Positions 44,818 through 59,406 of a stretch of DNA of 64,000 nt are shown piece by piece; position 1 is the first letter of the stretch, and every line of letters starts with the position of its first letter. Source of the stretch: Acidobacteriota bacterium (GTDB lineage Bacteria > Acidobacteriota > Thermoanaerobaculia > Multivoradales > Multivoraceae); NCBI GenBank assembly GCA_029263415.1, contig JAJCXN010000005.1:62001-126000 (forward strand), in the 5' to 3' direction. Made by a program: the position numbers and the translations under genes. The notes under the pieces are model-generated. The model saw only the letters and a program-made list of their open reading frames with translations. It searched no databases and was not told the origin of the DNA.

Positions 44818-45306
44818 CTAGAACGACATCAGGTAGTCGTAGACAGCTTGCGCATCAGAGCGATTCATGCGGAAAGCAGGCATCGGGCTACGAGCCTCGG
44901 TGCCATTGGGCCGCATGCCGCTCATCAGAAAGTCGACGAACTCAGCCTCGGTGTATCCCGGGGCGTTGCGCAGATTAGGAGCAGTGAAGGCCCAACGAGG
45001 AGTTCCCTTGTAGGGACTCTTGAGCGGGATGGCGGCACCCGTGAACAAGCGATCGCCGACTAGATCGCCGCGACGACTGTTGCGCGGAGAGTGGCATTGC
45101 ACACACATGGCAACGTCGTTCGCAAGGTAGCGACCGCGCTCGGCTGAAGCGGTCGCTACAGGCGAGGCCGCATCGCCAGCATCAGCTTCTTGAGCGACGG
45201 CTGAACCGAGAGGCGACAAACCAAAGACCGGAACGGTCGCTGCGGCCACTGCGCACAGGCCGACAATGCAGAGGATCGGGATGAGGCGAGGCTTGAGCGA
45301 GAACAT
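44818..45306 (-). CDS. Exported c-type cytochrome
   Basis: A monohaem cytochrome c of about 162 residues with an N-terminal signal or anchor helix (LIPILCIVGLCAVAAATVPV). The haem motif is CVQCH within ANDVAMCVQCHSPRN. A distal methionine is available in GMRPNG or PMPAFRMN. The ATG giving MFSLKPRLIP is used because it begins the signal peptide, with GGAG upstream. It resembles the small cytochromes attached to alcohol, aldehyde or sorbosone dehydrogenases, but no such enzyme is adjacent. It is divergent from the AhpD-like gene. Confidence 0.88.
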   Translation of the reverse strand: MFSLKPRLIPILCIVGLCAVAAATVPVFGLSPLGSAVAQEADAGDAASPVATASAERGRYLANDVAMCVQCHSPRNSRRGDLVGDRLFTGAAIPLKSPYKGTPRWAFTAPNLRNAPGYTEAEFVDFLMSGMRPNGTEARSPMPAFRMNRSDAQAVYDYLMSF

Positions 45307-45637
45307 GATCGAAAGATCTCCAGAGATTGGACCAGGCGAGCGTGGTTGATTTTGTGCGCTCGGCGCGGTTTGAGGCTTTTGAGTGAGACGGCAGCGAATC
45401 AGGATCCGTATGGACTCAAGAGAACGCAGCACGTGCTCGGCGGACTCTACCAAGCTCGGCCCCATGTTTTCAGCAAACTCCTAGAGCTGTACGCAGGGTT
45501 GACCTCATCCAGAGGCGAGGAACTTGTCCCTCATAGCGGGCAGCTACACTCCCTTAGCCGAGATCTACCCTGGGACCAATATCCGCTCCCCTCACACTCC
45601 GATCTAACTCCGACCTCCAACAAGGACCAAAGACCAA
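45307..45637. other. Divergent intergenic region, 331 bp
   Basis: This lies between the cytochrome c gene (leftward) and the AhpD-like selenoprotein candidate (rightward). I see no gene in it. It must hold both promoters, but no pair of boxes at good spacing stood out. Confidence 0.5.
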
Positions 45638-46204
45638 ATGGCCTGGATAACGACCGTTTCCCCCGCCGAAGCAACCGGCCCACTGAAAAGGCTCTACCAA
45701 AGCGCTCTCGAGCGCGCTGGCAAAGTCTTTAACGTCATCAGAATTCAAAGCGTCCAACCCAAGACGCTTGCCGCATCGACCCGGCTCTACAGCGAGGTGA
45801 TGCAATCGCCCTCGAGTGCCTTAACGCGGGCCCAGCGGGAGATGATCGCAACCGCAGTCTCGAGGGCCAACGCCTGTCACTACTGAACTCGCGCGCACGG
45901 CGACGACCTCCGGGTTGAGGTCGCAAAGGAAAGTGGTAGTGAAGTTGCGGACAGAATCACCGAGGCCGTGATGACGGACTTCAATGAGGCACCGCTAGAT
46001 GAACAGGATCAAGCAATGTTGGTGTTCGCCATGGCCCTTACCGTCAATCCGGGAGCGATGGAGCGCAGCCATGTCGACGCACTCCGAGCTGCTGGGTTCA
46101 GTGACACGGCTGTCCACGACATCGTGCAAGTCACAGCGCTCTTCGCGTACTACAACAGAATCGCGGACGGCCTAGGCATTGACGACGAACCGGAGTGGCT
46201 CTAG
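45638..46204 (+). CDS. AhpD-like peroxidase-related protein with in-frame TGA (selenocysteine candidate)
   Basis: Read through the TGA at 45884-45886, this is a 188-residue carboxymuconolactone-decarboxylase/AhpD-fold protein of the peroxidase-related group. The segment REMIATAVSRANACHY-[TGA]-TRAHG aligns with the family's usual A-x-G-C-H-Y-C-x-x-x-H-G, so the TGA is exactly at the second redox cysteine and would give C80-H-Y-Sec83 followed by the conserved His. The frame stays open and family-like for 105 more codons (LDEQDQAMLVFAMALTVNP, VQVTALFAYYNRIADGLG) to a TAG. A SECIS-like hairpin follows the TGA. Expected role: peroxide or thiol-disulfide redox chemistry in the cytoplasm. A nonsense mutation is the alternative. 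Confidence 0.8.
45887..45926 (+). promoter_or_regulatory. SECIS-like stem-loop after the in-frame TGA
   Basis: CGACCTC (45904-45910) pairs perfectly with GAGGTCG (45917-45923) around the six-base loop CGGGTT. The loop begins 24 bases after the TGA. Bacterial SECIS elements lie within the coding region just downstream of UGA, with a short upper stem and a G among the first two loop bases. This hairpin meets those criteria and also carries the GGU that SelB prefers. Confidence 0.6.
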
Positions 46205-59007: not shown

Positions 59008-59406
59008 ATGCAAGCACCGAACGCCCCCACAAACCGGCCAGCGCCCGTCCAGTCGTGGTTCGGCGTACGGCTCGCGGTCTTTGCGGTTGTCGCGGGCTTC
59101 TCTTGGCTGTTCTTCATCAACTTCTGCCACCTGGTCTACCAATGCGGCTGCGAATCGCTGTGGGCCGGGGCAGCGACCCAATGCAATATCCACCACGCTG
59201 TGGGGCCGCACTGTCCTTGGTGCGTCGACGACTGGAGCGGCGCGGTGGTGTTGGCGTTTGCCACCGCTAGCCAAGCTGCGTTCTTGTTCGCACCCGGTGG
59301 TCTCGCTTTGGCTGCGCGGGTGGTCGGTAGCGCTCTATCGCTACCGATCGTCGGTGGCATCTTGGCGGCAATCTTCGGGATTGCTCGCGGCTACTGGAGC
59401 GTTTGA
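59008..59406 (+). CDS. Cys-rich small membrane protein of unknown function
   Basis: A 132-residue protein with two or three helices. After the first helix (FAVVAGFSWLFFINF) a short external or internal loop contains CHLVYQCGC...QCNIHHAVGPHCPWC, six cysteines and three histidines within about 40 residues. This is reminiscent of a metal or haem/iron-sulfur site, or of vitamin-K-epoxide-reductase-like redox loops. I recall similar conserved proteins in Acidobacteriota, but no name. The next gene starts about 57 bp later in the same direction. Confidence 0.65.
   Translation: MQAPNAPTNRPAPVQSWFGVRLAVFAVVAGFSWLFFINFCHLVYQCGCESLWAGAATQCNIHHAVGPHCPWCVDDWSGAVVLAFATASQAAFLFAPGGLALAARVVGSALSLPIVGGILAAIFGIARGYWSV

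Follow-up and report, generated by a model that had tools for sequence, protein, structure and literature searches.

The window analysed here, a stretch of 64,000 nucleotides from an Acidobacteriota bacterium, almost certainly carries a gene for an AhpD-like thiol/selenol oxidoreductase of the peroxidase type, a member of the CMD superfamily in which selenocysteine (Sec) is the second residue of the redox centre (Table 1). The reading frame opens with ATG, is interrupted by a single TGA at codon 83, and continues in frame for a further 105 codons to a TAG. When translated with readthrough, the merged protein matches the TIGR01926 ('peroxidase-related') model over its full length (residues 2-186 against profile positions 1-178, E = 1.6e-44, 151.8 bits against a curated cut-off of 81.8) and also matches Pfam CMD. 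Both in the TIGR01926 alignment and in the alignment with homologues, the TGA falls on the second cysteine of the CxxC motif, giving C80-H-Y-U83. The first-pass annotation had read this locus as an otherwise intact AhpD/CMD gene with a single TGA at the second redox cysteine, and the one continuous 188-residue frame bears this out. It had also expected standard gene calling to split the gene. This is indeed the case, since translation with table 11 yields two separate open reading frames, one of 82 amino acids (45638-45886) and one of 78 amino acids (45968-46204).

Table 1. Features of the predicted selenoprotein gene in the window
Feature	Position	Strand	Basis
AhpD-like (TIGR01926, PF02627) gene, predicted selenoprotein, 188 residues with U83, stop codon TAG	45638..46204	+	Translation, profile matches
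UGA predicted to encode selenocysteine (U83) at the second redox position of the CxxC motif	45884..45886	+	TGA in the same column in 27 close homologues
Cys80 (TGT), at the start of the CHYU centre	45875..45877	+	Invariant in 22 aligned homologues
Invariant Glu68, corresponding to the proton-relay Glu of AhpD	45839..45841	+	Alignment; roles as in PMC3141380
Invariant His87, corresponding to the relay His of AhpD	45896..45898	+	Alignment; roles as in PMC3141380
bSECIS-like hairpin within the coding sequence: stem 45904-45910 (CGACCUC) / 45917-45923 (GAGGUCG), loop CGGGUU 45911-45916	45904..45923	+	

The active site has the motif E68-X11-C80-H-Y-U83-X3-H87, in which E68, C80, position 83 and H87 are all invariant across 22 aligned sequences. 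In AhpD the corresponding Glu, Cys and His form part of a proton relay (PMC3141380). An AlphaFold2 model of the window protein (pLDDT 95.8) has an all-helical AhpD-like fold, which agrees with the solved structures 3c1l, 6k40, 2prr and 2oyo at TM 0.84-0.89. These peroxidase-related AhpD proteins, at about 27-33% identity, have the same fold and the CxxC at the same place, but they have Cys in the U83 column where the window protein has the predicted Sec. AhpD of M. tuberculosis (1gu9, 1knc, 1lw1) is a weak global match to the model (E about 0.015-0.05). The two share an active site formed by a hairpin of two helices that bears Glu, Cys, Cys and His (PMC3141380), but the chain topology differs and the mycobacterial protein likewise has Cys in place of the predicted Sec.

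We propose that the organism's own SelA, SelB, SelC and SelD would insert Sec at the UGA, directed by the hairpin just downstream. His87 and Glu68 would then activate U83 for attack as a selenolate, and Cys80 may resolve it as a selenenylsulfide; by analogy with AhpD, the order would be attack by U83 and resolution by the thiol of C80. The outcome could be the reduction of a peroxide by the protein itself, or the protein might serve as a reductant partner. The window protein may thus have peroxidase activity, and as a peroxidase it may be the more reactive for its Sec.

It is also possible, if somewhat unlikely in our judgement, that this is a true selenoprotein of the CMD superfamily whose redox role is not that of a peroxidase, a reading that is compatible with Sec decoding. 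Such roles exist, as the debrominase Bmp8 shares the fold (its structures have TM 0.75-0.76 to the model), and the genes around the selenoprotein gene suggest no peroxide substrate. On one side lies a gene for a cytochrome c-like CxxCH protein, adjoining two M16 peptidase genes, and on the other a gene with a transglutaminase core, followed by those for an ABC ATPase and a permease. Against this, the nearest solved relatives are called AhpD, peroxidase-related or antioxidant defence protein, although these are largely putative names. The gene order is conserved in a relative's locus (L062), and also in two others (L024 and L040) within the reach of their shorter loci. The cytochrome c-like gene (44818-45465, minus strand) encodes a CVQCH motif, has no Pfam match at E 0.001 and is kept in close relatives.

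The selenoprotein reading is also supported by the RNA structure downstream of the UGA. A 7-bp stem begins after a spacer of 17 nt and closes a small apical loop that contains a G, and a hairpin of this form just 3' of the UGA is what characterises a bSECIS element. In 27 distinct sequences the stem positions pair in 98.9% of cells, as against 28-50% in slid controls. Two stem pairs show compensatory changes, one being G-C in 13 sequences and C-G in 12, the other C-G in 20 and U-A in 5. Altogether 17 cells are changed on both sides of the stem, and none of 500 shuffles reached the observed share of pairing or the observed covariation score. Among all 38-nt stretches of the gene, the most stable one starts at the base directly after the TGA. 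Taken by itself, the stability of the window hairpin does not differ significantly from that of shuffles of its composition (z -0.98), and the evidence for the hairpin therefore rests on its position and covariation. Some of the covarying bases also change the encoded amino acids (Asp/Glu with Ala/Gln), so constraint on the RNA and constraint on the protein are not fully separable. In a small control of four Cys homologues from the relatives, no common hairpin was found at this place. An Rfam search of the window gave no match.

A Sec codon at this position implies a Sec-decoding system, as the first-pass annotation had predicted, and all of its parts were found in the same genome, a draft of 6.89 Mb in 60 contigs that is 99.2% complete. 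In a profile search of the genome selA (457.7 bits), selB (329 bits) and selD (249.2 bits, joined over two pieces of one 833-aa open frame) all scored over their curated cut-offs. A tRNA-Sec (71.1 bits) was found on a contig other than that of the window and is called by ARAGORN as tRNA-SeC with anticodon tca (UCA); there is no tRNA within the 64-kb window itself. The best tRNA-Sec and SelB hits stand clear, well above the weaker matches seen in the genome, and such weaker matches are expected from tRNA-Ser and from other translational GTPases. The tRNA-Sec gene lies near the end of its contig (G000:C28; L001 148-244, minus strand), and a stretch at about 1-80 of the same locus appears to repeat the flank and the 3' part of the tRNA. 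The selD frame (L021, on contig G000:C23) has extra sequence upstream of selD and could represent a fusion of the kind described for Ndh-SelD proteins (PMC2398784).

This machinery also bears on whether the UGA might be decoded as another amino acid, whether through reassignment of the codon to Trp or Gly across the genome or through near-cognate readthrough. Any decoding of the UGA would give the full-length product, but many relatives terminate this same gene with TGA, and UGA is therefore a stop elsewhere. The tRNA-Sec with its UCA anticodon together with selA, selB and selD, the Cys at this position in the solved relatives, and the hairpin at the place of a bSECIS element all speak for Sec, and we consider decoding as another amino acid very unlikely.

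Conservation of the UGA among relatives provides further evidence for Sec. A search of 99 genomes, the organism's own and those of relatives, found a match to the window protein in 56. All 27 close homologues aligned (L024-L050; 45-67% identity) have TGA in the same CxYU column, and the same is true of L010, L051 and L052, which are more distant. Named genome records gave six loci, five of which have TGA in the U83 column, the sixth, a Thiohalocapsa sequence of 31% identity, having Cys. Two of the five (L062 and L065) have a matched protein stretch identical to that of L024 and L025 and probably come from the same genomes, which leaves L063 and L064, taken from named MAGs, and the 50%-identical L066 as independent additions; these agree in having TGA. 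The nearest named record is a MAG labelled Thermoanaerobaculia, but other relatives bear the labels Polyangiaceae and Nannocystaceae. In close pairs the amino-acid identity is 0.84-0.91 before the TGA and 0.81-0.89 after it, and differences are most frequent at third codon positions, the pattern to be expected of a translated frame. The protein-like conservation, together with the translation, upholds the earlier claim that coding continues past the TGA for 105 codons to the TAG. In one genus of the same family (21 genomes; G001 and G004-G023), selA is over the cut-off in 19, is found as two pieces in one and gives a marginal match in one; a close orthologue of the window gene was found in none of the 21, and a few have weak TGA-bearing matches.

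Read with the standard bacterial code, the gene is indeed split by its in-frame TGA, as it would be in a pseudogene in which a chance nonsense mutation had struck the redox Cys codon and the two halves were decaying. Close relatives might then be expected to show random stops and frameshifts, but they keep the TGA at the same codon instead. The same TGA in 27 close homologues across many genera and families, the constraint after the TGA, the TGA at the equivalent position in the genome's two other CMD genes and the complete Sec machinery make such decay highly improbable, and the first-pass argument that a TGA at the redox cysteine is not a matter of chance is well founded. A sequencing or assembly error, with TGC or TGT read as TGA, has nothing in its favour beyond the draft state of the genome and is in practice excluded, because the same codon occurs in independent assemblies of different species.

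Our search of the genome found three proteins of the CMD family, and the genes for all three have TGA at the equivalent site; no Cys version was found in the genome. The second is another TIGR01926 gene (L010 1483-2040, minus strand, contig G000:C38) with its TGA at CHYU, followed by the hairpin CGACGC-GGGCU-GCGUCG. The third (L072 1465-2025, plus strand, contig G000:C51) has the motif CPFU, with the TGA at L072 1714 and a stem CGCUGCC/GGUAGCG after it, and it matches NF053654, a YciW-related (seleno)protein model, at 259.8 bits, under the cut-off of 310. We speculate, with considerable doubt, that the whole CMD/AhpD complement of this lineage has been turned to selenium, possibly with a non-peroxide substrate. 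If true, one class of redox chemistry would depend strongly on selenium. A scan of the window for split genes, in which the sequence before and after a TGA both had to show coding signal, turned up one weak candidate at 59404 that looks like two adjacent genes in the same frame; the scan cannot exclude further cases, because its strict thresholds missed even the gene at 45884.

The AhpD-like CxxU selenoprotein family is already catalogued, and good evidence places the window gene in it as a new member. As the first pass stated, such proteins are known from metagenomic surveys, namely as an AhpD-like CxxU selenoprotein of COG2128 in the Sargasso Sea survey of 2005 (PMC1088965) and as 'AhpD-like 1', with 299 sequences, in the GOS survey of 2008 (PMC2398784); a 2026 review has the entry AhpD-like, TIGR01926, CxxU (PMC13188914). 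The window gene shares with the Sargasso and GOS proteins (COG2128/TIGR01926) the family model, the CxxU motif and a bSECIS-like hairpin after the UGA. It differs in being set in one draft genome with the whole decoding machinery, and it adds the conservation of the UGA and the covariation of the hairpin across relatives. A related AhpD-type (seleno)protein, the 'hypothetical protein 1' of the Sargasso survey, is described by the model AhpD_rel_CFYUT (NF041238). This model has 357 positions as against 188 residues in the window protein, which matches its later part at 73.2 bits, far under the curated cut-off of 175.

Because the family was already known, our analysis contributes an annotation and a clean set for comparison, and no new mechanism. 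The window gene is a genome-anchored selenoprotein that standard gene callers break into two fragments. Its relatives are mostly Sec-competent as judged by selA, which is over the cut-off in 90 of 99, and for the same reason the presence or absence of selA is of little use as a contrast. The set of homologues is a ready test bed for what Sec contributes to AhpD-like enzymes.
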